Source: an uncultured Bacteroidota bacterium
GTDB lineage: Bacteria > Bacteroidota > Bacteroidia > Bacteroidales > P3
DNA: 64,000 nt
Reading direction: 5' to 3'
Assembly (NCBI GenBank): GCA_902800395.1
Contig: CADCEC010000006.1
Location: 55,223-119,222 of the forward strand
Each line of letters starts with the position of its first letter. The stretch's first letter is position 1. Below are positions 8,159-63,794 of the stretch, one piece after another. Under the pieces are notes generated by a model that saw only the letters and a program-made list of their open reading frames with translations, was not told where the DNA came from and made no database searches. The position numbers and the translations under genes are program-made.

Positions 8159-9516
8159 ATAGTCTCAATGCCGTTTCACCCATTGATGGGCGCTATCGTT
8201 CCAAATGCGAGCCTCTAGCCAAGTATTTTTCCGAAGGGGCTCTGATTAAATATCGTGTCCGCGTCGAAGTGGAGTATTTTATTGCTCTGAGCGAGCAATT
8301 AGTGGAAAGTGGAAAGTGGAAAGTGGAAAACGGGAAGCGGGTGGCTAACAACGCCGAAGCGCTGCGCAACATCTACCGCAATTTCACCGATGCCGACGCT
8401 CAGGCCATCAAGGACATCGAGAAGGTGACCAACCACGACGTAAAAGCCGTGGAATATTTCCTCAAAGGAAAGTTCGACGAGATGGGGATGGCTGACCTCA
8501 AGGAGTTCATCCACTTCGGCCTCACCTCGCAGGACATCAACAACACCTCCGTGCCCCTTTCCATGAAAGAATGCCATGATGAGGTGCTGCTGCCGGCCTA
8601 CAAGAAAATCCTCGCCCTTCTCGACGAGCGCGCCGAAGAGTGGAAGGACATCCCCATGCTGGCTCACACCCACGGCCAGCCCGCCTCGCCCACCACACTG
8701 GGCAAGGAGTGGGGCGTTTTCGCCTACCGTCTGCGCCGCCAAATCGAAGAGTTGGAGCGCATTCCCTTCACTGCCAAGTTCGGCGGTGCCACGGGCAACT
8801 TCAACGCCCATCTCGCGGCTTTCCCGGAGGTCGACTGGCGCGCCTTCGGCAACGATTTCGTGAAGAATCATCTCGGCCTTGAGCGTCAGCAGCTCACCAC
8901 CCAGATTGAGAACTACGATATGATGGCCGCTTGGTTCGACGCTTGCAAGCGCATCAACGTCATCCTCGTCGACCTCTGCCGCGACGTGTGGACCTATGTC
9001 TCCATGGAATATTTCAAACAGAAAATCAAAGCTGGCGAGGTGGGTTCCAGCGCCATGCCGCACAAGGTCAACCCCATCGACTTCGAGAACGCCGAAGGCA
9101 ACCTCGGCCTAGCCAACGCCATCTTCGAGCACCTGAGTCACAAGCTCCCCATCTCCCGCATGCAGCGCGACCTCACCGACAGCACTGTCTCCCGCAATAT
9201 CGGCGTCCCCATCGCCCACACCATGATTTCCATTGCTTCGCTGGAGAAAGGTCTCGGCAAGCTGCTCCTCAACGAACAGGCCCTTTACCGCGATTTGGAG
9301 AACAACTGGGCCGTGGTGGCCGAAGCCATCCAGACCATCCTGCGCTCCGTGGGCTACCCCAACCCCTATGAGGCCCTCAAGCAGCTCACCCGTACCAACG
9401 AAAAAGTCACCTCCGAGACCATCGCCGCTTTCGTCGAAACTCTCGATGTGGCCCCCGACATCAAGGAGCGCCTTAAGAAACTTACCCCCCACAACTATAT
9501 CGGCTACTCACTATAA
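8155..9516 (+). CDS. purB: Adenylosuccinate lyase PurB, with a heptamer-repeat insert
   Basis: Cleaves SAICAR and adenylosuccinate to release fumarate in purine synthesis. 453 residues, E. coli-type length. Motifs: SPIDGRY at the N-terminus, HFGLTSQDINNTS with the conserved region-1 residues, AHTHGQPASPTTLGKE, and the signature loop GSSAMPHKVNPIDFENAEGN. At about residues 49-58 the chain reads VESGKWKVEN, encoded by four copies of GTGGAAA (8302-8329) in the loop before the conserved LRNIYRNF helix; the insert keeps the frame. The lyase appears intact. Coupled to the PHP phosphatase gene by a 4-bp overlap and followed 3 bp later by an ABC exporter. Confidence 0.96.
   Translation: MNSLNAVSPIDGRYRSKCEPLAKYFSEGALIKYRVRVEVEYFIALSEQLVESGKWKVENGKRVANNAEALRNIYRNFTDADAQAIKDIEKVTNHDVKAVEYFLKGKFDEMGMADLKEFIHFGLTSQDINNTSVPLSMKECHDEVLLPAYKKILALLDERAEEWKDIPMLAHTHGQPASPTTLGKEWGVFAYRLRRQIEELERIPFTAKFGGATGNFNAHLAAFPEVDWRAFGNDFVKNHLGLERQQLTTQIENYDMMAAWFDACKRINVILVDLCRDVWTYVSMEYFKQKIKAGEVGSSAMPHKVNPIDFENAEGNLGLANAIFEHLSHKLPISRMQRDLTDSTVSRNIGVPIAHTMISIASLEKGLGKLLLNEQALYRDLENNWAVVAEAIQTILRSVGYPNPYEALKQLTRTNEKVTSETIAAFVETLDVAPDIKERLKKLTPHNYIGYSL
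8302..8329 (+). repeat. Quartet microrepeat, GTGGAAA x4, inside purB
   Basis: Four exact tandem copies of the heptamer GTGGAAA. Three heptamers (21 bp) encode VESGKWK, so the array reads as a Lys/Glu/Trp-rich peptide in frame. Confidence 0.95.
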
Positions 9517-9519
9517 CCC

Positions 9520-11328
9520 ATGAGAAAGAACTTCACCCTGAGACAACTCAAGCCTTACGGTGCACGCTGTGCATTGTATGGTTTGTTCGTGGTGCTCAGT
9601 GTGATGTTCACCATGGCCACCGCGCTGTCGGTGGCCGACTTCCTGCGCATCCTCTTCGGCACTGGCGACGTCGCTGCGGTCACCTCCGGCAACCTCATCG
9701 CCCAGTGGCTCGACAAACTTTACACTTGGCTCATCTCCTTCGGCAAGGTCAACGCCCTCCATCTCTTCTCCGCAATCATCTTTGTGCTCTATGCGTTGAA
9801 GAACGTCTTTTCCTACCTTTCCACCATCCAGATTGCCGTCATCCGCAGCAGTGTCATTCGAGACCTGCGCAAAAAGCTTTTCCATAAGGCGTTGCATCTG
9901 CCGATGAGCTATTACGACCGTCACCGCAAGGGCGATGTGATGGCACGTTTCAGCAGCGACATGGTCGAGTACGAGGAGGGCATCCTCAATTCCATCCAGA
10001 TGCTCCTCACCTCCTCGATTTCCATGCTCCTCTACCTCTCCATGCTCCTCTATCTCAATGTCAAGCTCACGCTCTTCGTGCTCTGCATGCTGCCGATAGT
10101 GGCGTTTGTCATCTCCGGCATCTCGCACAAGCTCAAGCAGGCGTCGAAAGTGGTGCAGGAGATGAACGCCCATCTCATCTCGCTCACCGACGAGGCCATC
10201 GGCGGCCTCAAGGTCATCAAGGCCTACACCGCCATCGACTTTTCCAACCAGCGTTTCCGCGAGTACAACCACGATTACACACGTCGCCGCTTCCACATGT
10301 TCCGTCGTGTCGATGCCGCGTCTCCTGTGAGCGATTTCTTGGGTAACGTCATTGTTATCGGCATCCTCCTCTTTGGTGCTTGGTTGGTTTTCAATGGCGA
10401 CCAGGGCCTCACTTCCGAGCTCTTCATCTCCTATGTGATGCTCTTCGTGTTGATGATTCCACCCGCCAAAGACCTCTCCACCGCTTTCTCCCAAATCAAG
10501 AAAGGCCGTGCTTGCGCCGACCGCATCGAGCAGTTCCTCGAAGAGGAAGTGGAAAGTGGAAAGTGGAAAGTGGAAAACGAGTCTTCGCCAGAAAAAAATT
10601 CAGCTTCCGCGGTCTCTCTCCGCCGCGTCTCTTTCTCCTATAACACTGGTACAGAGGTGCTTCATGACATCAATATCGATGTTCCACGTGGAACAACGTT
10701 GGCGCTTGTCGGCTCCTCCGGCAGCGGCAAGTCAACCCTCGCCGACCTCCTCTGCCGCTTCTATCCCTGCACCGAAGGTCAGATACTGCTCGAAGGCACC
10801 GACATTAGCACCCTGCCCCTCTCTGTCCTCCGCAGCCGCATCGGTGTGGTGGCACAGGACACCCTCCTTTTCAACGACACTGTGGCCGCCAACATCGCCT
10901 TCGGACGACCCGATGCCACGCAGGAAGAAATAGAAAACGCCGCCAAGGCGGCACAGGCGCACGATTTCATCCTCGGCCTCCCACAAGGCTACCAGACTTC
11001 CCTCGGCGAAGGTGGCAGCCTCCTCTCCGGTGGCCAGCGGCAGCGCATCAGCATTGCTCGCGCACTGCTCCTCAACCCCGACCTCCTCATCCTCGACGAG
11101 GCCACCTCGGCACTCGACACCGAGAACGAACGCCTTCTTCAGGCCACCCTCAATGAAGTGCTACGCGACCGCACGGCCATCGTCATCGCCCATCGCCTCT
11201 CCACCATCGTGGGAGCCGACAATATTGTGGTCCTCGACCACGGCCGCATCGTCGAACAAGGCACCCACGCCGAACTCATGGCACATAACGGCCGTTATGC
11301 CGAACTGGTAGCCCTGCAAAGTTTCTAA
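9520..11328 (+). CDS. ABC exporter, fused membrane and ATP-binding domains (MsbA-like)
   Basis: 602 residues. A six-helix type I exporter membrane domain spans about 1-325, followed by an ATPase domain with Walker A GSSGSGKST (about 397-405), signature LSGGQRQRISIARALL and Walker B LLILDEATSALD, then the H-loop AHRLST. Probably exports lipid, LPS precursor or drug across the inner membrane; the substrate is not determinable. The linker between domains contains VESGKWKVEN from a GTGGAAA quartet (10549-10576). A perfect parS site (10680-10695) is embedded in the codons for DVPRGT just before Walker A. Starts 3 bp after purB. Confidence 0.93.
   Translation: MRKNFTLRQLKPYGARCALYGLFVVLSVMFTMATALSVADFLRILFGTGDVAAVTSGNLIAQWLDKLYTWLISFGKVNALHLFSAIIFVLYALKNVFSYLSTIQIAVIRSSVIRDLRKKLFHKALHLPMSYYDRHRKGDVMARFSSDMVEYEEGILNSIQMLLTSSISMLLYLSMLLYLNVKLTLFVLCMLPIVAFVISGISHKLKQASKVVQEMNAHLISLTDEAIGGLKVIKAYTAIDFSNQRFREYNHDYTRRRFHMFRRVDAASPVSDFLGNVIVIGILLFGAWLVFNGDQGLTSELFISYVMLFVLMIPPAKDLSTAFSQIKKGRACADRIEQFLEEEVESGKWKVENESSPEKNSASAVSLRRVSFSYNTGTEVLHDINIDVPRGTTLALVGSSGSGKSTLADLLCRFYPCTEGQILLEGTDISTLPLSVLRSRIGVVAQDTLLFNDTVAANIAFGRPDATQEEIENAAKAAQAHDFILGLPQGYQTSLGEGGSLLSGGQRQRISIARALLLNPDLLILDEATSALDTENERLLQATLNEVLRDRTAIVIAHRLSTIVGADNIVVLDHGRIVEQGTHAELMAHNGRYAELVALQSF
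10549..10576 (+). repeat. Quartet microrepeat, GTGGAAA x4, in the ABC exporter linker
   Basis: Four exact tandem GTGGAAA units, in frame, at the junction between membrane and ATPase domains. Same word and copy number as in purB. Confidence 0.95.
10680..10695. other. parS centromere-like site 2, inside a coding sequence
   Basis: TGTTCCACGTGGAACA, a perfect 16-bp palindrome identical to the classic B. subtilis parS core. It lies within the ABC exporter gene and encodes residues around DVPRGTT without disturbing the ATPase fold. Confidence 0.92.
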
Positions 11329-11330
11329 AA

Positions 11331-11358
11331 GAATGAAGAATGAAGAAAAAAAAATGAA
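11331..11358 (+). repeat. Quartet microrepeat, GAATGAA-type x4, over a start codon
   Basis: Units GAATGAA, GAATGAA, GAAAAAA, AAATGAA. Both possible start codons of the T9SS protein lie inside the array. Confidence 0.85.
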
Positions 11359-12571
11359 GAATGTGCTTGCGCTTTTTTGGGGCGTCAGCCAATTCATCAT
11401 TCTTCATTTTTCACTCTTCATTCCCCTCTTTGCCCAGGACACTGTCGCCCCCGTCACCCGCTGGCTCGCCACCGTCGTCGACAATCAGATTGTCCTCTCC
11501 TGGACTCCCAGCACCGACTCCAATGTCATGGGTTACCATATCTGCACCGGCACCCCCTGTCTCGACTACGACACCATCTTCGGCCGCACAAGTTGTGACT
11601 ATATCTGCCTCGACCACAACCCACTCGAGCGGCACACCTACCGCATCCATGTCTTCGACAGTGCTTACAACGTCAGCGCACTAACGCCCTCTTTCGGCAA
11701 TATCGTCCTCTCAGCTGCGGTACCACAGTGCTCCACCGAGGTCACAGCCTCCTGGACCCCTTATGTAGGAATGCCCGGTGGCGTCTCCTCCTACCAGCTT
11801 TGGGCCAAACTCGAACCCCTTGAGGAGACTTTCTCCTTCCGCTACGGTACCGACAGCGCCGGTACATTGGCCTACCAGTTTGATATCGACGATAGAGTCA
11901 CACGCGTATGGCTCAAGGTGCATGCCGTGGGCTTTCCCGACACCATCACCGGTGGCCGTCTTGTCTCGCAGTCCAATGTTGTCGCCGTGGCGCGCCTCAC
12001 CGTCGATTCCTCCGCTTTTCTGTATGTCAACTCCGTCACCTACGACAGTGCCACCACTAGCATCCATCTCACCTTCTCCGCCGACACCTCCTACCATCCC
12101 GACCACTACACCCTTTGGCGCAGCGTCGACGGTAGCCCTTGGATTCCGATTACCACTTTGCCGCTCCCACTCGACAGTTACACTGACTACGACGTCAACC
12201 CCTTCGACTCCCTCCACTGCTATCGTATTTCTGTCACCGATGCCTGCGACATGAACGAGAAATACTCCGCCGTTCAGTGTGTCGTCACCCCCGACCCGCC
12301 ATCGCCCGCCGTCGCCATCCCCAACACCGTCCTCGTTGGCAACCCCGACAACGGCACCTTCCTCCCGTGGTTCCGCGGACTCAAGGGCGACCTCTTCGAA
12401 ATGTATATCTATAACCGGCAAGGAATCCTTGTCTACAGCACCACCGACCCCACCATTGGCTGGACACCCTCCGCCACCACCTCCCAAGGGGTCTACACCT
12501 ATGCCATCCGCTGCCGCTACAACACCAACACCATCAAAACCTACACCGGTACCATTCTAGTATTGAAATAA
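11333..12571 (+). CDS. Secreted fibronectin-III-like protein with a T9SS type B (CHU_C-like) sorting domain
   Basis: 412 residues. The signal peptide ends at IPLFAQ (about residue 35). Two or more Fn3-like domains follow (VAPVTRWLATVVDNQIVLSWTP; YHPDHYTLWRSVDGSPW). The last ~75 residues (FEMYIYNRQGILVYSTTDP ... GVYTYAIRCRYNT ... YTGTILVLK) match the gliding-motility-associated C-terminal domain that directs T9SS export and surface attachment. The start region is unusual: a GAATGAA heptamer quartet (11331-11358) contains both candidate ATGs (11333 and 11354), and an inverted quartet (11393-11420) encodes FIILHFSLF of the signal peptide. Function beyond surface location is unknown. Confidence 0.85.
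   Translation: MKNEEKKMKNVLALFWGVSQFIILHFSLFIPLFAQDTVAPVTRWLATVVDNQIVLSWTPSTDSNVMGYHICTGTPCLDYDTIFGRTSCDYICLDHNPLERHTYRIHVFDSAYNVSALTPSFGNIVLSAAVPQCSTEVTASWTPYVGMPGGVSSYQLWAKLEPLEETFSFRYGTDSAGTLAYQFDIDDRVTRVWLKVHAVGFPDTITGGRLVSQSNVVAVARLTVDSSAFLYVNSVTYDSATTSIHLTFSADTSYHPDHYTLWRSVDGSPWIPITTLPLPLDSYTDYDVNPFDSLHCYRISVTDACDMNEKYSAVQCVVTPDPPSPAVAIPNTVLVGNPDNGTFLPWFRGLKGDLFEMYIYNRQGILVYSTTDPTIGWTPSATTSQGVYTYAIRCRYNTNTIKTYTGTILVLK
11393..11420 (-). repeat. Quartet microrepeat, inverted copy of the GAATGAA type
   Basis: On the plus strand: TTCATCA, TTCTTCA, TTTTTCA, CTCTTCA, the reverse complement of the 11331 array type. Together the two arrays form an inverted pair 34 bp apart, and this one encodes the hydrophobic core of the signal peptide. 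Confidence 0.85.
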
Positions 12572-12594
12572 TATTCCTTAAAGTCCCTAGAGAA

Positions 12595-18384: not shown

Positions 18385-20690
18385 ACAGCAAGCGGCTTAT
18401 ACAATGGTCGGTGGTGATTGTCGCAATCACAGTTGCTGTCATCTTCATCGTGTGGCGTACCCCTTTGGTGGAAGAGGTAAAGCGGGAGAGCGCGAAGCTG
18501 TTCGATTATGAGTATATCCCCAACCAGGATGTGGCGATTGAAGGCACGGAGGCGGCAATGGCGGCGGATTCCATCTACAAGGACTTCCGCAAGAAGTTCC
18601 GCTTCCATTACCAGACCCTCGGCATGGCGTCGTTTGCCGATAGCAGCCGCATGATCCTGCTCTCCGACATCCCGCCACATTTCGAGACAGACTCCATCGC
18701 TCCTATCTTCGCCAAGTTCACACACAAGACAGAGCTCCGCAAGCACCCCATCGGTTACGACGGCTATGTGACCGATGTGGTCATCCTGCTCGCCAATGCC
18801 ACGCAGGAGAACTGCGACAACCTGATACGACGGCTGAACCGTGAGCTTTTCTTCAGCGACTACAAGCCCACGGTGATGACGCTGCCGGCAACGGAGAAAC
18901 GCCAGTATTTCACTGAGAAAAGCATCGACTACCAAATCACGCTAGAGGAGTTCAACACCTGGTTCATGGAAGAAGGGGAGGGGTTTATACAACCTGCCGG
19001 CAATATGCCGGCGCTCCAGACAGACAGCGCTAAGGTGCTGACTGTCCCCGAGCTCTTCGCACAGAAAGCGCGAGGCGTCTACTTCAGCCAGAAGCCGGGC
19101 TTCGTGGCATGGGCAATGGCTAAAGACACCGATATCGCCCCGCAGGTAGGCGATATTCGTCAGTTCACATTGGATGCTGACCTTATCTTGGGTGCCCTTG
19201 CCGACAGCGGCACGCTGGTCATCATCGGTCGCGAGCGCCAGTCGCCGCTGCACGAGCTGCCACCGTTGCAGGTGGAGAGCATCCTCCTGCTGGCTTCCAC
19301 CACCGAGAAGGAGCTGTCGCAGAGTCTCGACATCAACGACCTAATGGCGGGCAAGATGGTGAACGGCCGCGACTGGTGCCCCACCTACCTCAGCAGGGAG
19401 CTGGAGAACACTGAGTTCGGCGACCTGATGACCATCACCGACGTGCTGCTGAAAGACTGGTCGGAGCGCGGCACGATACAGGAGGGCTACTACCGCTACC
19501 CCGAGCCCGGCTACTACCCCTTCGATAAGCCTTTGTTCCGTAAGCTGGGCCTCAACGAGTTGGTCTACAACTGGAACACCGCCGGCGCCATGTACGCTAT
19601 AGATAGAGACGGATATACTATTTACACTTTGGGCCGCACCGGCTCGCTGCCTGTGAGCTATTTCAATTCGCAGGAAAGGAGTCAGTCGATAGGCTACCGC
19701 TACGAGGCGCAGGCTTACCATTATTTCGCCACCCTCGGCTGCACCGACCTCGCCCGCGTGGTGCAGTACACCGCCCTCTACCAGCTCTTCATCGACAACA
19801 ACATCAGCTATTCAGGCAATACCTACTCGTCGCCAAACAAAAAGGCATTCCTGCTCTACAAGCCCACGACGGAACTGCTGAACAAGATTCGCAACCTCAG
19901 TGGTGAGGAGATAGCCCTGCTGGCCGACAGTCTCGCGCAGCGCAGCTTCCATAGTTATCAGAGAGAGCAAGTCGACAAGCAGCTGCGGGAGAATGAGCAG
20001 CAGCACAATTTCTCCTACAGCGACGAGAATCGTGATCGTATCTATCAGGATGTGCATCGCAATACCCAAGCCGGTATCAGCCGTAGCATTAACGAGGTGA
20101 AGGGTATGCTGAATGGCCTTTCGGAGGAGCAGTTCAAAAAACTGGCGCGGTATCTGTCGTATCCTCGTGGAGTGACAATAAAAGATCAAGACAGCTACAA
20201 CACCTACTTGCGCGCACGTCGCGTCAACCAGTTGATGCGCGAGGTGGGGAAGAATAACCTCGACCTGATAGGTATGGACCTCGCCAATGTGAAGAACTGG
20301 TATGCAGGAAGTTTGTCGGGATATTCCGGTCGCTACATGAAGACTTCGTCGCTCATCGTCACCTACAACGACCTGCTCACCACCGGCGGCCACAACCTCT
20401 CCTCCCGCATCAGCCGGGTCAACTCGATGACCAACTACAAGCGCACCCGCAACTATACGCCCACCGACTACGAGCGGCCCGCCACCACCGAACCCGTAGC
20501 CACCGACGCCAAACCATCGACCACCAAACCCACCGGCGCCAAACCCACCAAGAAACACTCAAGCAATCAGACAGCTAAGCCATCAAACAATAACTCAAGC
20601 AATCACGCAGTCAAACAATCAAGCAATCATAGCGTTCGTTCGCGAAATTCTGTGATATCCTCTGCCCCGCGCAAAACCAGAGGCCTTTAA
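18381..20690 (+). CDS. Large membrane-anchored protein of unknown function
   Basis: 769 residues. One N-terminal membrane helix (about 8-25, WSVVIVAITVAVIFIVW) with a cytoplasmic basic start leaves a ~740-residue domain outside the inner membrane. It is acidic and mixed alpha/beta without recognised motifs. Near 205-212 the PAGNMPALQ segment is encoded by a 24-bp REP-like hairpin element (18995-19018). The last ~70 residues are a Thr/Lys/Ser/Asn-rich tail (TTKPTGAKPTKKHSSNQ...) partly built by two CAAGCAAT octamer quartets. The ATG overlaps the upstream stop (ATGA). I do not recognise a family; a periplasmic structural or binding role is possible. Confidence 0.8.
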   Translation: MNSKRLIQWSVVIVAITVAVIFIVWRTPLVEEVKRESAKLFDYEYIPNQDVAIEGTEAAMAADSIYKDFRKKFRFHYQTLGMASFADSSRMILLSDIPPHFETDSIAPIFAKFTHKTELRKHPIGYDGYVTDVVILLANATQENCDNLIRRLNRELFFSDYKPTVMTLPATEKRQYFTEKSIDYQITLEEFNTWFMEEGEGFIQPAGNMPALQTDSAKVLTVPELFAQKARGVYFSQKPGFVAWAMAKDTDIAPQVGDIRQFTLDADLILGALADSGTLVIIGRERQSPLHELPPLQVESILLLASTTEKELSQSLDINDLMAGKMVNGRDWCPTYLSRELENTEFGDLMTITDVLLKDWSERGTIQEGYYRYPEPGYYPFDKPLFRKLGLNELVYNWNTAGAMYAIDRDGYTIYTLGRTGSLPVSYFNSQERSQSIGYRYEAQAYHYFATLGCTDLARVVQYTALYQLFIDNNISYSGNTYSSPNKKAFLLYKPTTELLNKIRNLSGEEIALLADSLAQRSFHSYQREQVDKQLRENEQQHNFSYSDENRDRIYQDVHRNTQAGISRSINEVKGMLNGLSEEQFKKLARYLSYPRGVTIKDQDSYNTYLRARRVNQLMREVGKNNLDLIGMDLANVKNWYAGSLSGYSGRYMKTSSLIVTYNDLLTTGGHNLSSRISRVNSMTNYKRTRNYTPTDYERPATTEPVATDAKPSTTKPTGAKPTKKHSSNQTAKPSNNNSSNHAVKQSSNHSVRSRNSVISSAPRKTRGL
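18995..19018 (-). repeat. REP-like 24-bp GGAG hairpin element, copy 2, inside a gene
   Basis: On the minus strand: GGAG, C, then perfect stem GCCGGCA / TGCCGGC with a TAT loop. In frame with the host gene, encoding AGNMPALQ. Confidence 0.8.
20560..20627 (+). repeat. Two CAAGCAAT octamer quartets in the C-terminal tail of the unknown membrane protein
   Basis: First quartet 20560-20591 (CAAGCAAT, CAGACAGC, TAAGCCAT, CAAACAAT), a 4-bp gap, second quartet 20596-20627 (CAAGCAAT, CACGCAGT, CAAACAAT, CAAGCAAT). The arrays encode an Asn/Ser/Gln/Lys-rich tail. Confidence 0.9.
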
Positions 20691-22223: not shown

Positions 22224-22226
22224 GTA

Positions 22227-22247
22227 AAGGTTAAAGGTTAATGGTTA
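22227..22247 (+). repeat. Microrepeat, AAGGTTA-type heptamer x3, upstream of the TfoX-N gene
   Basis: Units AAGGTTA, AAGGTTA, ATGGTTA, with a weaker fourth (AAGTGTT) to 22254. Fills most of the gap between ogt and the TfoX-N gene. Confidence 0.75.
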
Positions 22248-22255
22248 AAGTGTTT

Positions 22256-26104: not shown

Positions 26105-26132
26105 AGTTAATAGTTAATAATTAAAAGTTAAT
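26105..26132 (+). repeat. Quartet microrepeat, AGTTAAT-type heptamer x4
   Basis: Units AGTTAAT, AGTTAAT, AATTAAA, AGTTAAT, directly after the yifB stop. Confidence 0.9.
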
Positions 26133-26140
26133 AGTTCTAT

Positions 26141-30344: not shown

Positions 30345-30608
30345 CTATAATTCCTTCAGTTGTTCGAGTGCGTGGCAGAGTTGGTCGGGGCAGGAGGTGG
30401 GTTTGTCACCGCAGCGGATGCCGCGGAGTTTGGCGATTACGTCATCGATTTTCTGGCCGATGACAAGGCGGCAGATGCCCTGCAGGTTACCGTTGCAACC
30501 GCCGAGGAACGAGACCTGCTGGATGATGTCGTTGTCGTCGGCCGTTACGTCGATAAGCAGCGAGCAGGTGCCTTGGGTTGGATATTGTATATGCTTCACA
30601 ACTTTCAA
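30345..30608 (-). CDS. TSCPD domain protein, TTG start inside a microrepeat
   Basis: 87 residues. The family signature TSCPDQLCHAL is near the C-terminus, with TQGTCSLLIDV at the front and GGCNGNLQGI in the middle: a small Cys-rich fold related to a ribonucleotide reductase C-terminal domain (TIGR03905 type). No ATG is available, so a TTG at 30606-30608 is used; it lies inside an AACTTTT-type heptamer array. It follows mutT by 3 bp, so coupled translation is likely. Confidence 0.85.
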   Translation of the reverse strand: MKVVKHIQYPTQGTCSLLIDVTADDNDIIQQVSFLGGCNGNLQGICRLVIGQKIDDVIAKLRGIRCGDKPTSCPDQLCHALEQLKEL

Positions 30609-30634
30609 CTATTAACTTTTCACTTTTAACTTTT
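30600..30634 (-). repeat. Microrepeat, AACTTTT-type heptamer x5, across the mutT/TSCPD junction
   Basis: On the plus strand: AACTTTC, AACTATT, AACTTTT, CACTTTT, AACTTTT. It encodes the C-terminus KLKVKS and stop codon of MutT and supplies the TTG start of the next gene. Confidence 0.85.
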
Positions 30635-34941: not shown

Positions 34942-34987
34942 GACGCAAAAATCGAGGGTGCCGGGACAACTGCCGAGATGGCATTTG

Positions 34988-40184: not shown

Positions 40185-41180
40185 ATGGAAGAAGGACTGG
40201 TCATAAGGACGACAGGCAGTTGGTACCGGGTGCTACTCGCTGACGGCAGTCAGCGCGACTGCCGTCTGCGGGGCAACTACCGTCTGCGGGGCAACAAACA
40301 GACCAACCCTGTGGCGGTAGGCGACCATGTCTTCTTCGAAATTCAGGACGACGGTACCGGCGTCATCCACGATGTGGCCGACCGCAAGAATTACATCGTC
40401 CGTCGCGCCACCAAACTCTCCAAGCAGACGCACGTCATCGCCTCTAATATCGACCTCCTCTGCATCGTGGCCACCCTCGGGCTGCCACGCACTTCCACAG
40501 GTTTCATCGACCGACTGCTGGTCACCGCCGAGGCCTATCACATCCCCGCCTGCATCCTCTTCAACAAGGTGGATCTCTATGATGAGGAGCTGTGGGAAAT
40601 TCATAACGAGGTGAAGGCCATCTACACCGCCGCGGGTTACCCCGTCTACGAGATTTCTGCCCTCGAGGGCACTAGACTCGACGAGGTGAAACAGCTCATC
40701 GCCGGCAAGACCGTCCTCTTCAGTGGACACAGCGGTGTGGGCAAGAGTGCCCTCCTCAACGCCCTCTCCCCGGGTCTCGCCCTCAAGGTGGGCGACATCT
40801 CCGACTGGAGCCTCAAAGGCAAACACACCACCACCTTTGCTGAAATTTTCCCAGTGGAAAGTGGAAAGTGGAAAGTGGAAAGCGATGCTGCCGCACCCGG
40901 AAATCTTTCCTCTTTCCACTTTCCGTTTTACACTTATCTTATCGATACTCCCGGCATCAAGGAGTTTGGTATGGTGGACTTCAACGCACAGGAGCTCTCG
41001 CACTTCTTCCCCGAGATGCGCGCCCTGCTGCCCAAGTGCCGTTTCGCCAACTGCACCCACCGCCATGAGCCTGGCTGTGCAGTGAAAGAGGCCCTCGATG
41101 AGGGCCTCCTAAGCGCAGAGCGTTACAAGAACTATCTCGGTATTCTCGAAGACATCGAAACTGACTACCAGCGTCCATAG
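40185..41180 (+). CDS. rsgA: Ribosome small-subunit GTPase A, with a repeat-built insert
   Basis: 331 residues. An OB domain is followed by a circularly permuted GTPase: NKVDLYDEE (G4), then GHSGVGKSALLNAL (G1), KHTTTFAE (switch I) and LIDTPGIKEFG (G3), and a C-terminal zinc knuckle (PKCRFANCTHRHEPGCAV). It checks late 30S assembly. Between switch I and the DTPG motif about 30 extra residues (VESGKWKVESDAAAPGNLSSFHFPFYT) are encoded by a GTGGAAA quartet and an inverted, decayed copy. The OB region also has a near-exact 18-bp duplication (RLRGNYRLRGNK). Overlaps the convergent nitroreductase gene by 16 bp. Confidence 0.93.
   Translation: MEEGLVIRTTGSWYRVLLADGSQRDCRLRGNYRLRGNKQTNPVAVGDHVFFEIQDDGTGVIHDVADRKNYIVRRATKLSKQTHVIASNIDLLCIVATLGLPRTSTGFIDRLLVTAEAYHIPACILFNKVDLYDEELWEIHNEVKAIYTAAGYPVYEISALEGTRLDEVKQLIAGKTVLFSGHSGVGKSALLNALSPGLALKVGDISDWSLKGKHTTTFAEIFPVESGKWKVESDAAAPGNLSSFHFPFYTYLIDTPGIKEFGMVDFNAQELSHFFPEMRALLPKCRFANCTHRHEPGCAVKEALDEGLLSAERYKNYLGILEDIETDYQRP
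40854..40881 (+). repeat. Quartet microrepeat, GTGGAAA x4, in rsgA
   Basis: Four exact units, in frame, between GTPase switch I and the DTPG motif. Confidence 0.95.
40906..40926 (-). repeat. Inverted partner of the rsgA GTGGAAA array
   Basis: Plus-strand TTTCCTC, TTTCCAC, TTTCCGT: three decayed reverse-complement units 24 bp after the direct array, giving a potential hairpin inside the gene. Confidence 0.75.
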
Positions 41181-43052: not shown

Positions 43053-43119
43053 TTGTTCAGTATTTGTTCAGTATTTGTTCAGTAAATCACTGAACAAATA
43101 CTGAACAAATACTGAACAA
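43053..43119. repeat. 31-bp perfect inverted repeat built of 11-bp units
   Basis: Left arm 43053-43083, 5-nt loop AAATC, right arm 43089-43119. Each arm is about three tandem copies of TTGTTCAGTAT. It lies between namZ and dut. A stem this long and exact could fold in RNA or extrude as a cruciform. It is not followed by a U-tract on either strand. Confidence 0.95.
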
Positions 43120-43138
43120 ATGCACTAGTTGAAGGCAA

Positions 43139-43713: not shown

Positions 43714-43745
43714 CTTATCTCCTTATCTCCTGACTCCTTAACTAC
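43714..43745 (-). repeat. Quartet microrepeat, CTTATCTC-type octamer x4, over the clpP stop
   Basis: Plus strand: CTTATCTC, CTTATCTC, CTGACTCC, TTAACTAC. The clpP stop codon (43742-43744) is inside the last unit. It matches the array at 48673 at 29 of 32 positions. Confidence 0.9.
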
Positions 43746-44417: not shown

Positions 44418-44449
44418 CGTTATTACGTTATATCGTTATTACGATTTCT
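44418..44449 (-). repeat. Quartet microrepeat, CGTTATTA-type octamer x4, forming the TrmD C-terminus
   Basis: Plus strand: CGTTATTA, CGTTATAT, CGTTATTA, CGATTTCT. It encodes the last residues (RNNDIT) and the stop codon of TrmD. Confidence 0.85.
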
Positions 44450-48672: not shown

Positions 48673-48704
48673 CTTATCTCCTTATCTCCAGACTCCTTAT
48701 CTCC
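48673..48704 (-). repeat. Quartet microrepeat, CTTATCTC-type octamer x4, at the permease stop
   Basis: Plus strand: CTTATCTC, CTTATCTC, CAGACTCC, TTATCTCC; the permease stop codon begins in the last base. Homologous to the clpP array. Confidence 0.9.
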
Positions 48705-49747
48705 TAATACTTTTTCTTGCTTTTGTACAACAGGTAGATGAACAGCGGGGCTCCCACCATCGAGGTGAGGCTACCCACGGGCAACTCGCCGGGACGCAGC
48801 ACCGTGCGTGCCAGGGTGTCGCACACCAGCACGAAGAGGGCGCCGCAGAGCATCGAGTAGGGCACCACCTTGCGGTTGTCGGCCCCCACCACCAGCCTCA
48901 CGGCATGCGGCACTATCAGTCCTACGAAACCTATCACGCCGCAGGAACTCACGGCAAAAGCCACCATCAAGGTGGTGAAGAGCAGCAGCACACGCTTCAC
49001 CTTCTCCACTTCCACACCCATGCTCTTAGCGGCCTCGCTGCCAGCCAGCAGGAGGTTGAGGTCGCGCGAGTACCACAGCACCACGCCGATGCCCACCGCC
49101 GCCACCGGCAGCATTACCTCCACATCCTCCCACGAGATTCTCGAGGGGTCGAAGCTGCCCATGGTCCAGAAGATGATGTCGTCCATCTTCTCGTGGTTCA
49201 TCACCATGAGGAACGAGATGATGGCCGAGATGAGCAGGGTGAAGCAGACGCCTGTCAGCAACAACGTGGTGGTATGCATGCGGTTGCCGATGGAGGCAAT
49301 CTTGTAGATGAGCAGCACCGTGAGTAGCGCCGTCGCCAGCGCCAGCCCGCTCACGCCCCATTGGATGGCACCCCATCCCAGCAGGATGGCCACGGCAGCA
49401 CCCAGCGAGGCGCCACTCGAGACGCCCAGCACATAGGGGTCCGTCAGCGGATTGCGGAAGATGCTCTGATAGGCCGCACCACATACGCTCAGCACGCCGC
49501 CCACCAGCACACACATGAGTATCCTTGGCAGTCGCAGCTGGACGAAGAACCACAAGGTTCGCAGTTCGGCGGTATCGATGTTTTCCTTCCCAAAGCATTG
49601 TCCAACCCACAATTTGAATTCCTTGTACAAATCCTCGGCGTTGATATCGACGGCACCGACAAGGCTGCTACCCACAATGGTGGCCAGCAGCAGCACTACA
49701 AGCACCACCACAACCCACGGGTTCAGAATATGTTTTTGAGGGTTCAA
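48704..49747 (-). CDS. FecCD-type ABC transporter permease (iron/siderophore/cobalamin)
   Basis: 347 residues, about ten membrane helices. Family blocks: LRLPRILMCVLVGGVLSVCGAAYQSIFRNPLTDPYVLGVSSGASLGA and GFVGLIVPHAVRLVVGADNRKVVP. Inner-membrane importer of a metal chelate. A charged loop after the first helix (NAEDLYKEFKLWVGQCFGKENIDTAE) is longer than usual. Overlaps dapB by 4 bp, so transport and lysine/peptidoglycan genes share a transcript. Confidence 0.94.
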   Translation of the reverse strand: MNPQKHILNPWVVVVLVVLLLATIVGSSLVGAVDINAEDLYKEFKLWVGQCFGKENIDTAELRTLWFFVQLRLPRILMCVLVGGVLSVCGAAYQSIFRNPLTDPYVLGVSSGASLGAAVAILLGWGAIQWGVSGLALATALLTVLLIYKIASIGNRMHTTTLLLTGVCFTLLISAIISFLMVMNHEKMDDIIFWTMGSFDPSRISWEDVEVMLPVAAVGIGVVLWYSRDLNLLLAGSEAAKSMGVEVEKVKRVLLLFTTLMVAFAVSSCGVIGFVGLIVPHAVRLVVGADNRKVVPYSMLCGALFVLVCDTLARTVLRPGELPVGSLTSMVGAPLFIYLLYKSKKKY

Positions 49748-50445
49748 CTGAGGATGTCTTTCATGGTGTATACTCCAGGTTCAGCTTTCGCCAAAAACTC
49801 GGCTGCCAGCACAGCACCCAGAGCCAGCCCCTTGCGGCTGTGAGCCTCGTGAGTCAAGGTGATGGTATCTATCTCGCTGTCGTAGACCACGGTATGTGTC
49901 CCCGGCACCTCGCCCTCGCGGTACGACGTGATGGGCACACTTTCCACTTTTCGCTTTCCGCTTTCCACTATCTGTTCCTGCAGCGTGATAGCTGTGCCGC
50001 TGGGGGCATCGAGTTTGTGGATATGGTGGGTCTCGCTGATGGAGACCTTGTAGTCCTCCCGGCCACACATCAGCTTGGCTAGCCGCTCATTCAGGGCAAA
50101 CATGATGTTCATGCCGATACTGAAGTTGGTGGCCGTGAAGAGGCGTCCGCCGCGAGCTTTGCATTCGGCGACAACCTTTTCATAATCAGCATACCATCCA
50201 GTAGTGCCGCACACTACTGGCAGTCCCGTCTCAAAGCAGCGCAGCATATTGCCCACCGCTGTTGCCGGCGTGGTGAATTCAATGGCCACATCCGGCCTCT
50301 TTCCACTTTCCACTTTCCACTTTCCACTTTCTATGGGCCAAGGGTCGTCCTTGTCAATCTTCATGGTGACCTCATGCCCCCGCTCAGCGGCCAGCGCCTC
50401 GATGGCGTGACCCATCTTACCGTATCCTATCAGTGCTATCTTCAT
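49744..50445 (-). CDS. dapB: 4-hydroxy-tetrahydrodipicolinate reductase, with two repeat inserts
   Basis: 233 residues. NAD(P)H-dependent step to diaminopimelate and lysine. Motifs: IALIGYGKMGHAIE, VAIEFTTPATAVGN, GTTGWY, ATNFSIGMNIMF, the catalytic SISETHHIHKLDAPSGTA, and the closing EAHSRKGLALGAVLAA. Two GTGGAAA-type quartets are in frame in variable loops: IESGKWKVESGKR (50300-50327) before DVAIEF, and IVESGKRKVES (49941-49968) after the catalytic motif. Core residues are intact. First gene of the fec-type operon. Confidence 0.95.
   Translation of the reverse strand: MKIALIGYGKMGHAIEALAAERGHEVTMKIDKDDPWPIESGKWKVESGKRPDVAIEFTTPATAVGNMLRCFETGLPVVCGTTGWYADYEKVVAECKARGGRLFTATNFSIGMNIMFALNERLAKLMCGREDYKVSISETHHIHKLDAPSGTAITLQEQIVESGKRKVESVPITSYREGEVPGTHTVVYDSEIDTITLTHEAHSRKGLALGAVLAAEFLAKAEPGVYTMKDILS
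49941..49968 (-). repeat. Quartet microrepeat, GTGGAAA type x4 (decayed), dapB second insert
   Basis: Plus strand: TTTCCAC, TTTTCGC, TTTCCGC, TTTCCAC. Encodes VESGKRKVES on the coding strand. Confidence 0.9.
50300..50327 (-). repeat. Quartet microrepeat, GTGGAAA x4, dapB first insert
   Basis: Plus strand: TTTCCAC four times exactly. Encodes ESGKWKVESG on the coding strand. Confidence 0.95.
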
Positions 50446-51784: not shown

Positions 51785-51790
51785 AAAATG

Positions 51791-51812
51791 AAGGCGTCTT
51801 TCGAGACGCCTT
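51791..51812. terminator. Bidirectional intrinsic terminator between ribBA and the metal operon
   Basis: Stem AAGGCGTCT / AGACGCCTT with a UUCG-type tetraloop; T-rich on the plus side and a run of A (T on the minus strand) on the other. It serves both convergent genes. Confidence 0.9.
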
Positions 51813-51815
51813 CTT

Positions 51816-52121
51816 TCATTTCTTCTCCTTTTCTTTCGGCTTGTCGGAGACGACCTTGGTGTCGTAACCGATTTCCTTCATGGCGGCTTGGAGTTTCTTC
51901 ACGTCGGTCTTCGTGCCGTCGTAGGTCACCGTGACGGTCTGCTCCTTGATGCTGGTCTCGATTTTCTTGACGCCGCTTTCGAAGCGGAGGTTCTTCTTGA
52001 TTTTGTTCTCGCAGCTCTCGCAGTGCATCTGCGGTGTGGGGGTCATGACGAGCACGCGGAGGTCTTTTGAACCAGCCAGCAGTAGGAGGCTGGAGAGGAG
52101 GATTAAAAGGGTCTGTTTCAT
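51816..52121 (-). CDS. Secreted heavy-metal-associated (HMA) domain protein
   Basis: 101 residues. N-terminal signal sequence (LLILLSSLLLLAGS), then one HMA fold: TPTPQMHCESCENKIKKNLRFESGVKKIETSIKEQTVTVTYDG with the CxxC metal site in MHCESC. A short Lys/Glu tail ends it. Binds Cu(I) or a similar ion in the periplasm. Last gene of the operon with the TonB receptor and the HYC_CC_PP-like protein. Confidence 0.92.
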   Translation of the reverse strand: MKQTLLILLSSLLLLAGSKDLRVLVMTPTPQMHCESCENKIKKNLRFESGVKKIETSIKEQTVTVTYDGTKTDVKKLQAAMKEIGYDTKVVSDKPKEKEKK

Positions 52122-54132: not shown

Positions 54133-54202
54133 GATTAAGGGTTTAAAAGTTTGAAAGTTATTAAAATAGTCACTATAGTTACTATAATCACTATAACCAT
54201 AA
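54133..54202. repeat. Octamer and 9-mer quartets upstream of the TonB receptor
   Basis: 54133-54164: GATTAAGG, GTTTAAAA, GTTTGAAA, GTTATTAA. 54167-54202: TAGTCACTA, TAGTTACTA, TAATCACTA, TAACCATAA. Together they fill the gap between the HYC_CC_PP-like gene and the receptor. Confidence 0.8.
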
Positions 54203-54212
54203 TAACTTCCAA

Positions 54213-54572
54213 TCAAACCCTCAACACGGCCACCGTCTGCGCCAGTCCTCCTGGAGGGGCCAAAGCAGAACTACAGTAACTATAGCCACTATAGTCACTA
54301 TCAATAGAGGGAGCCGTCGGAGGAATCACCGCAAACAGCACCGGCAGCACAGGCAGGTCGAGGCTGGCGGTCATCGTCGGCACATAGTCAGACAGTTGCA
54401 TCGATTTCACCGTCATGCAGCCGCCCTCATCGGGGCAGCAGGTGCCGTCGGTCGGCAATGCCAACGAGATTTTCCCTGTGCACGAACATTTCTCCAACGA
54501 CACTCCAGATGTTCCCAAGAGTATCATTGTCAGCATGATGACGGAGAGAAATATGTTCGTTGCACGCTTCAT
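54213..54572 (-). CDS. Small HYC_CC_PP-like cysteine-rich secreted protein
   Basis: 119 residues from ATG 54572. Signal sequence (NIFLSVIMLTMILLGTSG), then EKCSCTGKISLALPTDGTCCPDEGGCM: the spacing of single Cys, Cys-Cys and Cys fits the HYC_CC_PP family often found beside metal receptors in Bacteroidetes, though the HYC triplet is replaced by CSC. Near the end, DSDYSGYSYCSS is encoded by a 9-bp quartet (54271-54306). The C-terminus (PPGGLAQTVAVLRV) is hydrophobic. The promoter box ends only 8 bp before the ATG, implying an almost leaderless mRNA. First gene of the metal operon. Confidence 0.7.
   Translation of the reverse strand: MKRATNIFLSVIMLTMILLGTSGVSLEKCSCTGKISLALPTDGTCCPDEGGCMTVKSMQLSDYVPTMTASLDLPVLPVLFAVIPPTAPSIDSDYSGYSYCSSALAPPGGLAQTVAVLRV
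54271..54306 (-). repeat. Quartet microrepeat, CTATAGTCA-type 9-mer x4, inside the HYC_CC_PP-like gene
   Basis: Plus strand: CTACAGTAA, CTATAGCCA, CTATAGTCA, CTATCAATA. In frame; same word family as the intergenic array at 54167. Confidence 0.85.
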
Positions 54573-57700: not shown

Positions 57701-58920
57701 GTGAGGGCGACACCGGCAACTGGGTGCGCGGCATCTTCAACACCGCGCCCTGCAGCGATGCCCTCTTCCGCGACAATTACGACTCCACCATGCAGTACAA
57801 CCTCACCTCCGTGGGTCCCGTCGGCTACAACGGCGTCGGCTACAGCTATGTGCAGACGCTCGTATCGCCCGAACACCTCGCCGGTCTCGAGGAAGGACTC
57901 ACGGCATTGGCTTTCCGTCCGGCGACCTATGTGGAGGGCTCCCACATGAGCAACGTCACCGTCTGGCTGGCCAATGTGGCCGACACCGCCCTCAACGACG
58001 GCCCCATCCTGCCTGATGCCGACCATCGCTTCATCAAGGTCATCGACTCCGGCAACTTCTGCCATACGGCGACGACGGAATGGCAGACCCTGCGCTTCGA
58101 CCGTCCCTTCCTCTGGGACGGACACAGCACCCTGCTGGTCGCCGCCCTGCGCGAGGATGGCGGCGACACCTCAGTCGTGACGCATTACTCCTGCCACTTC
58201 CGCCATCGCGATTTGATGGACACCGTCTACCGTTCCTACCAGATTGCAGGCTACTACCCCATCGACATCGACAGCGCAGGCAGCTACACCGGCCCTTACT
58301 ATAGTGGCTACGGGACCTTCGCGACGGGAGACCTCCGCCTCATTGGCAACCTCTGCGGGACGGCGCTCTGCGAAGCACCTGTAATCGACTCTGTCACGGC
58401 CGACAGCACGAGTGTAACCCTCGTGTGGCACGGTACCGGCAATGACTACCAACTTACCATTTCGCCCGACAGCCAAGGCTTGGGCACGATATCCACCCAA
58501 GACAACAGCTATACCTTTACAAGCCTCCAGCCCGCCACCAGCTATAGGGTGTCGCTGCGGCAGAACTGCACCGCTGCCGACTTCGGCTATTCCGACTGGA
58601 GCTCTGTGAATGTCACCACCACCGGCTCCGGCCCCATCGGTATCGACAACGTATCAACCTGTCAACTTGTCAACGTTTACCCCAACCCCACCCACGGCAA
58701 AGTCACCGTCACGAGCCCCGACCCACTTGCTTCCGTCACCGTCACCGATATGATGGGCCGCAGTGTCTACACTCAAACAATTAAGCAATCAAACACTCAA
58801 GCAATCACAATGGATCTCCACCACCTGCCTCAGGGTGCCTATTTTCTCATCCTCACCTCCGCCGACGGCAAGACCCACACCGTCCGCCTGCTGAAACAAT
58901 CGGACATCTTCTCACGATAA
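54757..58920 (+). CDS. Large multidomain surface protein with T9SS type A sorting domain
   Basis: 1387 residues. Signal peptide to VKAQ (about 23). Alternating domains follow: an N-terminal beta domain (30-200), Fn3-like repeats (about 205-280, 440-525, 700-780, 935-1010, 1215-1300; note recurring WTVEC/YTFRITNYC), MAM/jelly-roll-like domains beginning with PYVEDFEG and PYTEDFDSYTG (about 285-435 and 535-695) and a CUB-like domain (TVYDNGGAADHFS ... LTIYDGVGTSG, about 790-910). The last ~80 residues (VNVYPNPTHGKVTV ... VTDMMGRSVYTQ ... LPQGAYFLILTSADGKTHTVRLLKQ) are a T9SS type A signal. The C-terminus contains a CAAGCAAT quartet. Likely adhesin or glycan-binding protein. Confidence 0.9.
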   Translation: MKKSAILFLATLMLLMVSNVKAQSTDTILIGDTTNMVMGGTNLPYQSFSSSYTQEMVLASELNGPAMITGLDLYCGNGGIGRQCTIYLANTYLSRLDSFVPYGAMFQQVVVDTLGQEDGWNHFEFSTPFYYTGFGNLVVAFDSPWAMGGGDYYCDYSQTISRYAGINLTYLTPTFPTTVTTYRNIMRLHTQPVPAPVSTCPAPSVLVDAVGSTEVNVRIPGGSNLLWTVECITDGDGAWQTGGYGTSDTTYTMTGLTPNTHYTFRITNYCTDTFSTTFKHILTNCVPDTVPYVEDFEGLYFMPDCMRSTPGSVGDTPELDWSHSHSGICGVKLNGGTLVLPSFDVPTDSLELSFWAQNGTVNATLNLYVGVVSDPLDPATFVPVDTITVPQSWIPVVVRFDGHPGIAGQIAIRTANPRMTYFYIDDIELHRITPCQTIMAVTVDQISDISAMVHWVDTTGIYYEVAYGPSGFAIDSTHIVTGIHADSLLLNSLLPYTVYDVYVRSYCGNSYTNWSPVHSFRTFCSLLDTLPYTEDFDSYTGYPQASNLPCWRGHVDMNTCVVNPAGGGHSGNRALRWDWSSYDAAVQTAVLPAINTDLLPLNTLQLSFWAKNTENIYHMYDTARLVVGVMTDPTVDSTFQPIDTIVILGDDWYRYDVPLSGTGNYIAIRSCQGIGTREQWRAFLDDILLDLSPACQDVTGLTVTALTATTATVRWDGQPEGVVWQTYIDTDATVTPEADTTRLTNPECSFTDLTTGTPYYVWVRAICTLKNDTSQWEGPLQVVPGMWNMRVNKNDTLTVCGVTVYDNGGAADHFSAQHSSLVIMPDAPGHLVSIGGHCDIGSVSSLTIYDGVGTSGTVLWTKSVNNMWPVDFGPVVSETGPITLAFEGNTSFNYYNDGFELSVNCIPDTCIVHQLRLDTAVAATDSTLALTWECNGASSYEVEYGPVDFFAGTLLTTTNNNIVITGLSSLDRLEVHVRSLCGEGDTGNWVRGIFNTAPCSDALFRDNYDSTMQYNLTSVGPVGYNGVGYSYVQTLVSPEHLAGLEEGLTALAFRPATYVEGSHMSNVTVWLANVADTALNDGPILPDADHRFIKVIDSGNFCHTATTEWQTLRFDRPFLWDGHSTLLVAALREDGGDTSVVTHYSCHFRHRDLMDTVYRSYQIAGYYPIDIDSAGSYTGPYYSGYGTFATGDLRLIGNLCGTALCEAPVIDSVTADSTSVTLVWHGTGNDYQLTISPDSQGLGTISTQDNSYTFTSLQPATSYRVSLRQNCTAADFGYSDWSSVNVTTTGSGPIGIDNVSTCQLVNVYPNPTHGKVTVTSPDPLASVTVTDMMGRSVYTQTIKQSNTQAITMDLHHLPQGAYFLILTSADGKTHTVRLLKQSDIFSR
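58774..58805 (+). repeat. Quartet microrepeat, CAAGCAAT-type octamer x4, in the T9SS sorting domain
   Basis: Units CAAACAAT, TAAGCAAT, CAAACACT, CAAGCAAT. Encodes QTIKQSNTQAI between two conserved strands of the sorting domain. Confidence 0.9.
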
Positions 58921-59622: not shown

Positions 59623-59690
59623 ACCATCAAAAACGCGTCCAATGTGCAACACCAAACTATCAAAACCCGCAGATGGAAACAGCCCCGTTT

Positions 59691-59822
59691 GTAACGCTGA
59701 GAAGGTGACAATGTATCGCTGAGAGGGTGACAATGTAACGCTGAGAGGGTAACAATGTATCGCTGAGAGGGTGACAACGTATCCCTGAGAGGGTGACAAT
59801 GTATCGCTGAGAGGGTGACAAA
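59691..59822. repeat. Minisatellite, 22-bp unit x6
   Basis: Six contiguous units starting at 59691, 59713, 59735, 59757, 59779 and 59801, consensus GTATCGCTGAGAGGGTGACA then AT. Only scattered substitutions (T/A at position 4, G/A at 13 and 17). No spacers. Confidence 0.97.
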
Positions 59823-59895: not shown

Positions 59896-59967
59896 GAAAC
59901 TACTAATTTCCTACCCATAGAAACTACTAATTTCATAGGCATAGAAACTACTAGTTTTATCGGCACC
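59896..59967. repeat. Minisatellite, 24-bp unit x3, inside an inverted repeat
   Basis: Units start at 59896, 59920 and 59944 and begin GAAACTACTAATTTC (third copy GAAACTACTAGTTTT). Flanks GGGTGCCGA (left) and TCGGCACCCC (right, partly in unit 3) are inverted repeats, so the array is the loop of a larger stem. The core AAACTACTAATTT resembles an inverted repeat itself. Confidence 0.9.
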
Positions 59968-62320: not shown

Positions 62321-62357
62321 TGATTCATAAATGTCTATCCAAAAAAGATAAACAACA

Positions 62358-63756: not shown

Positions 63757-63762
63757 AACTAT

Positions 63763-63794
63763 CATCTATTATCTGTTAATTGTTATCTATTAAC
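63763..63794 (-). repeat. Quartet microrepeat, CATCTATT-type octamer x4, beta-propeller gene leader
   Basis: Plus strand: CATCTATT, ATCTGTTA, ATTGTTAT, CTATTAAC. Sits directly upstream of, and overlaps, the start region. Confidence 0.65.

Follow-up and report, generated by a model that had tools for sequence, protein, structure and literature searches.

Short tandem arrays of many different words, most often of four units, dispersed through the genes and spacers of a Bacteroidales genome and its relatives

How does a bacterial genome come to carry, in conserved genes and spacers alike, short words repeated in tandem about four times? The question is raised by a 64,000-nucleotide stretch (hereafter the window) from an uncultured Bacteroidales bacterium of a gut-dwelling group (GenBank assembly GCA_902800395.1, contig CADCEC010000006.1, positions 55,223 to 119,222 of the forward strand), located within contig C6 of a source genome of 2.4 Mb in 21 contigs. 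Our analysis of these arrays revealed that (i) they are non-random, (ii) their words keep a preferred register at unlinked loci, (iii) inverted pairs of one polarity are in excess and a minority of arrays adjoin a short core, and (iv) the presence of an array at a site is lineage-specific, with different words at one site in sister species. The explanation that we favour, though we would not yet call it probable, is that whole blocks are copied ectopically, homogenised locally and filtered by purifying selection; it covers most of the facts. A sequence-only reading of the window had already described these arrays, as units of almost invariable number produced not only by local slippage and without a named counterpart. 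As an observation it is partly confirmed, since the arrays exist far above chance; as an interpretation it is partly supported, since slippage alone is not the answer but neither the exact copy number nor the lack of a known relative stood.

Arrays were detected with a custom-made program that misses more decayed arrays, at score thresholds of 11 for the window count, 16 for the counts in genome samples (464 kb and 355 kb) and 14 for most other counts. The shuffle controls were made with this detector, and the listing of Tandem Repeats Finder (TRF) is without a shuffle control. The nearest relatives found in a genus set of 120 genomes are G138 (86% identity over purB and the ABC gene) and G036 (83%). 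The window contains 20 short tandem arrays, 19 of them in the 55 kb for which more than 20 had been claimed, versus 0-1 in each of 20 dinucleotide shuffles, and TRF lists arrays at the places pointed out earlier. In 464 kb of the source genome, 114 arrays were found (82 of them of period 7) versus none in one dinucleotide shuffle, and in 355 kb of G036, 71 versus none. Coding DNA was controlled with one randomisation each on the predicted coding DNA of the source genome, G138 and G036 (951 kb): 125 arrays were observed, versus 0 after codon-order shuffling and 8 when the protein was kept and synonymous codons were permuted. A chance origin is thus ruled out by the dinucleotide-shuffle, codon-order and synonymous-permutation controls, the randomised-sequence comparison that the sequence-only reading had proposed. 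Order-level controls gave 5 arrays in 252 kb versus 35 in 356 kb of 19 genus stretches at equal threshold, a contrast that is only rough, given the higher AT content of the controls and the fact that 3 of 18 control stretches supply all 8 hits obtained at a looser threshold.

The claim that nearly all arrays have exactly four units holds as a tendency. In the window (n=20), the copy number is 4.0-4.9 in 8 arrays, 3.0-3.9 in 7, 2.0-2.9 in 3, 1.9 in 1 and 5.1 in 1. A period-7 census of 2.47 Mb, in which a strict mismatch penalty cut decayed arrays short, gave 351 arrays with two (42), three (99), four (150), five (27) or more (33) whole copies. Four whole copies predominate for AAGGTGA (51/72), AATTGAA (56/89), TCAAGCAA (33/55) and GAATGAA (21/39), and have a lower share for TAAAGTT (31/77) and GGAGTGAAAG (9/23). 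Four units are therefore the mode and not a rule. A constant total length instead of a constant copy number finds no support in periods 8-10, where arrays lengthen roughly in proportion, although period-11 arrays have about three copies. G-quadruplex formation as the general cause of 'four' was also rejected, as words without G-tracts show an equal mode. Indeed, judged from their letters, most words lack GGG and many lack GG (e.g. AAACTTT, AATTGAA, TCAAGCAA), so quadruplexes are unable to explain the architecture generally.

Local replication slippage alone, in which chance seeds expand through 2-4 bp microhomology up to length limits near four and recurring words are those that slip or are tolerated more easily, is a distinctly doubtful explanation. 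It is consistent with the many arrays whose last unit is partial, which microhomology slippage would produce, and with the existence of arrays of 8-20 units. The words themselves argue against it. Each genome has dozens of them, with unit lengths of 6-10 bp (besides 11-mers), and they recur at unlinked loci as had been claimed: exact (GTGGAAA)4 has 30 matches at 28 places of the source genome (two overlapping pairs), versus 1 for the reversed pattern. It is present in 8 of 60 relatives searched; G036 has 7 matches, and 49 for the reversed order (word AAAGGTG). In samples that include orthologous arrays, with only exact copies taken out, GTGGAAA arrays (n=104) start at the A before GTGG in 39 cases, one base earlier in 23 and at the first G or T of GTGG in 5; 42 end at the G after AAA, and the modal form has 30 nt. 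Nine further words have preferred ends, strong for some and weak for TAAAGTT and AGAATTA. TAACGGT arrays start with TAACGGT in 27/43 and end with TAA in 25/43, GAATGAA arrays end with AAT in 27/39, and TCAAGCAA arrays start with TCAAGCAA in 31/55. Such a preferred register at unlinked loci is not predicted by slippage from independent seeds alone.

Arrays also occur as two arms around a short centre, as in two composites of the window:

11329..11363, plus strand: AAGAATG array beginning directly behind the stop of the ABC gene and extending into the beginning of the following gene; forms the purine arm of an inverted pair
11392..11423, plus strand: ATTCTTC array, the pyrimidine arm paired with the AAGAATG array at 11329..11363; directly preceded by the core GCGTCAGC (GCTGACGC on the opposite strand)
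40853..40882, plus strand: (AGTGGAA)4.3, purine arm of a composite within rsgA
40883..40903, plus strand: CGAT plus GCTGCCGCA, core of the rsgA composite
40904..40924, plus strand: TCTTTCC/ACTTTCC array, pyrimidine arm of the rsgA composite (TRF and detector)

Among array pairs 20-99 bp apart (n=41; R purine, Y pyrimidine), 24 are RY, 2 YR, 8 RR and 7 YY; less than 20 bp apart (n=27), 8 are RY, 3 YR and 16 of equal polarity. At 200-499 bp the counts are RY 6, YR 10, RR 13 and YY 13; with RY pairs not in excess, larger parent elements between distant inverted arms are not indicated at these distances and were rejected for them. In RY pairs less than 100 bp apart, the arms have an identical word in 16/32 and different words in 16/32.

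A minority of arrays adjoin a core, GCTG[A/C]CGC or ACAAATG. GCTG[AC]C lies within 12 bp 3' of the purine strand in 8/123 coding arrays (0-1 in further 3' 12-bp bins, 0-4 on the 5' side) and in 9/190 intergenic arrays (versus 0-5 in other bins). Furthermore, GCTGACGCA is enriched 12.6-fold within 50 bp of arrays (15/347 arrays; 39 occurrences in total), and 23 of 829 GCTGACG sites lie 3' of the purine strand of an array, mostly with a gap of 0-7 bp and next to diverse words. An enrichment at this position was also seen for GCTGCCGC (8 of 439 arrays) and for ACAAATG (13 of 439). In the congener G002, GCTGACGC and GCTGGCGC each occur twice versus 0.07 expected, which is a thin replicate. Relative to genes, the core (n=23) is sense in 10 cases, antisense in 10 and unoriented in 3. 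The block GTGGAAAGCGATGCTGMCGC has 11 occurrences in 8 of 120 genomes (reversed control 0) and is flanked by several different contexts, some copies being at one locus across species and others not; a common signal-peptide stretch may account for part of this recurrence. Composites with TTAACC-type arms have stops in every frame, and are thus not coding yet core-bearing. A Chi-like role was among the possibilities considered for GCTGACGC. With regard to viral spread, IMG/VR yielded 4 contigs for one word and none for a second. That arrays of different words adjoin one common core is a further point against slippage as the sole process.

Inverted arms, a short spacer, cores tied to word families and dispersal into different contexts are also what non-autonomous mobile elements of the MITE or REPIN type would give, with composites mobilised by a transposase in trans and single arrays as one-arm remnants. 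This explanation is unlikely, because arms often differ in word, RY pairs are not in excess at 200-499 bp, and the sites and genomes described below show neither a target duplication visible by eye nor a link to the one transposase family tested, Y1.

Gains are best seen at orthologous coding sites. The detector locates arrays in four of the conserved genes named in the sequence-only reading: purB, the ABC exporter gene, rsgA and, twice, dapB. Besides the rsgA composite, these arrays include:

8301..8329, plus strand: (AGTGGAA)4.1 in purB; native codons replaced, gene 12 bp longer than most aligned relatives
10547..10576, plus strand: (AAGTGGA)4.3 in the ABC exporter gene, between the membrane and ATPase domain matches; other words in three relatives

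The purB search gave some match in 98 of 99 genomes. The array, which swaps out native codons for a net gain of 12 bp, is shared by the source genome and a single species among the 29 others that matched best and were aligned. Gains of the replacement type were seen in purB and at 7 of 11 aligned sites (those with an array-free relative), and no target-site duplication was visible by eye at any of these, although the loops are diverged and short duplications could escape notice. In another relative (G117:C31:160247-161642), the purB match is split in two by additional DNA between residues 295 and 319.

In RsgA, the turn between AEIFP and the DTPG motif contains an array in 29 of 80 rows at a loose threshold (79 named loci plus the window), 26 of them with at least 3.5 copies. 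At least 12 words are used, 7-mers and 8-mers; the shortest turns are array-free, and an alignment to a solved RsgA has a gap at the array position. The relatives matching RsgA (best 80 of 97) are uncultured genomes, mostly labelled Bacteroidales or Bacteroidetes and many of them ruminant-derived. At locus L203, near 6776, the RsgA turn is 192 bp long, with stacked purine and pyrimidine arrays of up to 11 units. In the ABC exporter, the source genome, G138, G136 and G001 have different words at nearly one position, and 26 of 30 scanned loci have no array at that place.

Across the source genome, G138 and G036, with each pair counted both ways, 77 orthologous coding comparisons gave no array in 43, a different word in 23, the same word in 6, one change in 4 and an inverted array in 1. 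The sister thus has an array at 34 of 77 sites, versus 30 of 4000 random 75-bp coding windows. Intergenic comparisons gave no array in 58, a different word in 40, the same word in 18 and one change in 10. At own_c2 52906 of the source genome, AGTGGAA is present in the source genome and G036 and the pyrimidine word CTTTCAC in the same loop of G138; this opposite polarity at one site argues against slippage. Other sites favour it: an AATTCAG array has 5.7 units in G138 versus 2.7 in the source genome (net 21 bp), sisters have a seed-like GGAATGGGATGG where the source genome has a GTGGAAA array, and the rsgA arrays share a common phase despite their different words.

According to gene calls made here with a rough codon-usage method, 123 arrays lie in predicted genes (39%; 0.13 per kb) and 190 are intergenic (1.0 per kb), an eight-fold difference in density. 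Intergenic arrays are enriched in co-directional gaps: 167 lie in tandem, 15 in divergent and 8 in convergent gaps, versus 452, 93 and 66 such gaps (p 3e-4). In coding arrays, the purine strand is the sense strand in 64/123, and the word cycle contains a stop in 21/123 on the sense strand versus 62/123 on the antisense strand (Fisher 4e-8). This stop imbalance, together with the balanced purine orientation, is consistent with arrays entering in either orientation and purifying selection acting afterwards. The unit is not divisible by three in 104/123 coding arrays (period 6 or 9 in only 19/123), so that every frame reads one identical cycle. By eye, several composites have their core and pyrimidine arm in an apparent signal peptide, as in g36_c14 17820 (Met-Arg-Leu-Phe-Arg-Ala-Ile-Phe-Cys-Val-Ser, a putative signal peptide).

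The higher intergenic density, the excess in co-directional gaps, the hairpin-like pairs and the apparent use in signal peptides would suit arrays kept as functional sites, i.e. as binding sites, RNA hairpins or G-quadruplexes. We regard this as very unlikely, in view of the dozens of words and several unit lengths, the 123 of 313 arrays in predicted genes, the equal numbers of sense and antisense cores (10 versus 10 of 23), the many words incapable of forming quadruplexes and the congeners that are array-free. No known RNA family was detected, the window being without an Rfam match at gathering thresholds.

Array load differs strongly among congeners. As a proxy for this load, overlapping matches to (AGTNNNN)4AG and to its reversed order were counted in 37 genus genomes, several of them incomplete. 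Both counts are zero in 5 of the 37 and reach 504 and 674 in G002, which has 54 period-7 arrays in 220 kb. In 114 kb of three zero-match congeners there is no period-7 array (four others have periods 6 and 11), another point against slippage alone. Tens of matches in some other families of the order indicate that the phenomenon is not confined to the genus.

Two candidate factors acting in trans, a reverse transcriptase (PF00078) and the Y1 transposase, were rejected, as neither correlates with the pattern counts in the 37 genomes. The Y1 transposase (PF01797) is present in 28 genomes (median 70) and absent from 9 (median 37; p 0.67). A reverse transcriptase of the telomerase-like or defence type, adding tandem DNA templated by a short RNA, could account for the C-poor strand (the purine-rich strand has only 6% C in 439 arrays). 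Moreover, arrays resemble the short tandem cDNA of form (AB)nA made by DRT10 as described in PMC12632851, and the source genome does have one reverse transcriptase, its only PF00078 hit (G000:C1:142710-143267, L272), with a long C-terminal extension (832 aa up to the locus end). Such templated addition is nevertheless highly improbable. DRT10 needs a reverse transcriptase, and most array-rich genomes here lack a detectable one; the description in PMC12632851, as far as considered here, contains no chromosomal insertion. Of the 9 genus genomes that exceed 150 pattern matches, 8 are without a PF00078 match. Among these 8 are G002 (98% complete and with the highest count) and G023 (98%), and three of them are less than 80% complete. 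Dozens of words per genome would moreover require dozens of templates. A reverse transcriptase thus seems not to be needed, as far as PF00078 detects it.

The favoured explanation, ectopic copying of whole blocks, can be set out as follows. The element would be a block of about 22-45 bp in which roughly four tandem copies of a 6-10-bp word are followed by a partial unit and the ends are preferred ones. Blocks would stand singly or form, two by two, the arms of an inverted pair with a short centre between them. A new copy would arise when an entire existing block is copied elsewhere; template switching or break repair, the most likely routes, would replace a few tens of bp or less of the target with no evident target duplication. 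Slippage or conversion would then even out the units inside the block, and selection would spare copies only in tolerant spacers, 5' leaders, signal peptides and protein loops. Several results weigh against this explanation. No copying event or donor-recipient pair was identified. Registers are preferred and not absolute (start-frame entropy of 7-mers 1.3-2.5 of 2.8 bits), and their counts contain orthologous arrays and were judged without a formal null. Equal polarity is common at short range (16/27 pairs). GCTG[AC]C is missing from the 12 bp on the 3' side of at least 115 of 123 coding arrays. The 77 coding comparisons are non-independent (three species, both directions), the sister has no array in 43 of them, and tolerant loops alone could be behind part of the site reuse. 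Finally, some same-site arrays, as in rsgA, seem to descend from a single array that exchanged its word without moving, which favours a slippage-type turnover.

Local slippage must therefore play a part, but the register, the cores and the opposite-polarity replacement are not readily explained by it. The statement that the arrays are not only a matter of local slippage is upheld by the preferred register at unlinked loci, by array-free relatives at sites such as that in purB and by the load differences among congeners. A more far-reaching proposal is doubtful, though by no means negligible: a so far undescribed copying process of Bacteroidales would install defined units, each with about four copies of a 6-10-bp word of free choice. 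Some of these units would lie beside a core of the GCTGVCGC type or ACAAATG, both single units and inverted pairs would be formed, and other words would later overwrite them at the same sites. The words would be data carried and not a signal, no detectable reverse transcriptase would be involved, and new loops and signal peptides would be fed into essential proteins.

The other arrays of the window are the following; those given with a TRF score alone fall under the detector threshold of 11:

20595..20629, plus strand: 8-mer TCAAGCAA-type array x4.4 within an ORF (TRF score 49)
22225..22250, plus strand: TAAAGGT array, intergenic (TRF and detector)
26105..26136, plus strand: (AGTTAAT)4.6, intergenic, directly 3' of a stop codon (TRF and detector)
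30599..30634, plus strand: TAACTTT-type array across the 3' end of a minus-strand gene (TRF and detector)
34286..34312, plus strand: (AACGAA)4.5, near the end of an M28 peptidase gene (TRF and detector)
43714..43740, plus strand: CTTATCTC array x3.5 (TRF score 40)
44418..44443, plus strand: CGTTATTA array x3.2 (TRF score 38)
48673..48705, plus strand: CTTATCTC array x4.2 (TRF score 45)
49938..49966, minus strand: degenerate GAAAGTG-type array in dapB (TRF and detector)
50299..50331, minus strand: (GAAAGTG)4.7, some 115 bp into dapB (detector)
54166..54206, plus strand: 9-mer ATAATCACT array x4.6, intergenic (TRF and detector)
54269..54301, plus strand: 9-mer AACTATAGT array x3.7, intergenic (TRF and detector)
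58647..58674, plus strand: 8-mer CAACGTGT-type array in a gene whose product, a 1387-aa protein, has a secretion tail domain (TRF and detector)
58769..58807, plus strand: 8-mer ACAATCAA-type array x4.9 in the gene of the same 1387-aa protein (TRF score 43)
63759..63792, plus strand: CTATTAT array x4.9 at the start of a minus-strand gene (TRF score 33)

Other repeats are also present. At 43053-43121, three 11-bp units and their inverted copy are separated by a 4-bp gap in a hairpin-like layout. The 11-mers form tight inverted pairs, and this layout recurs with other 11-mers at other loci; as period-11 arrays (n=2) are present even in genomes without period-7 arrays, the inverted 11-mer pairs look like a separate class. 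TRF also lists a 22-bp unit, GTCAACTTCGGAAGTTGACAAC, repeated 4.5 times at 34987-35084 and itself largely palindromic, a 22-bp unit repeated 6 times at 59690-59821 and, nearby at 59896-59965, a 24-bp unit repeated 2.9 times. Elsewhere in the source genome, two tracts (G000:C1 about 151200-152700 and G000:C2 about 51100-52100) are 96-98% identical to G036, versus 83% over purB and the ABC gene, so that a recent interspecies exchange is possible from sequence identity.

Filamentous cyanobacteria have short tandemly repeated repetitive (STRR) heptamers of several words, tandem, dispersed and intergenic. The comparison of these with the present arrays is one of description. Calothrix heptanucleotides are mentioned in PMC4692102. 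The statement that no named element has this structure was too strong, since heptamers mostly of four units and in convergent pairs are described in Xanthomonas (PMC4692102) and other heptamers in PMC4679880. The closest known systems are heptamer repeats, above all GGGAATC of Xanthomonas. As described in PMC4692102, its arrays mostly have four units, form 70 convergent pairs in one genome and 75 in another, are 89-93% intergenic and are discussed in terms of quadruplexes. GGGAATC shares with the present arrays the 7-bp unit, the purine-rich strand, four as the mode, the convergent pairs and the dispersal. It is a single word, whereas here there are dozens of words, periods of 6-10, 39% of arrays in genes, mostly no GGG, and some cores. 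Direct repeats of TAACTGA occur in Beggiatoaceae, Cyanobacteria and some Bacteroidetes, mostly directly upstream of start codons in the type genome (PMC4679880). They are likewise dispersed few-unit heptamers, sporadic, partly in Bacteroidetes and occasionally within genes (purC), but of a single word; the many words found here come with a register and cores, neither of which forms part of the TAACTGA description in PMC4679880. Borg tandem repeats, as described in PMC9879509, are also fast-evolving, A-biased arrays in genes and spacers with partial-unit flanks; their units inside ORFs are all divisible by three, unlike those of 104/123 coding arrays here. Among the top matches in the open-access literature, no description of these arrays in this genus was found. 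New here are the polarity bias of RY pairs, the cores beside a minority of arrays, the replacement of words at orthologous coding sites and the differences in load among congeners.

Earlier reports of heptamers were piecemeal, with a separate rationale for each word (quadruplexes, translation signals). Many words with one architecture, in congeners having from none (in the samples) to very many arrays, make the architecture separable from any word and its origin testable. The arrays illustrate how loops of proteins and signal peptides can gain in-frame material, examples of such genes being purB, rsgA and dapB, and the copying process proposed here, if true, would be a new way for bacterial genomes to change.

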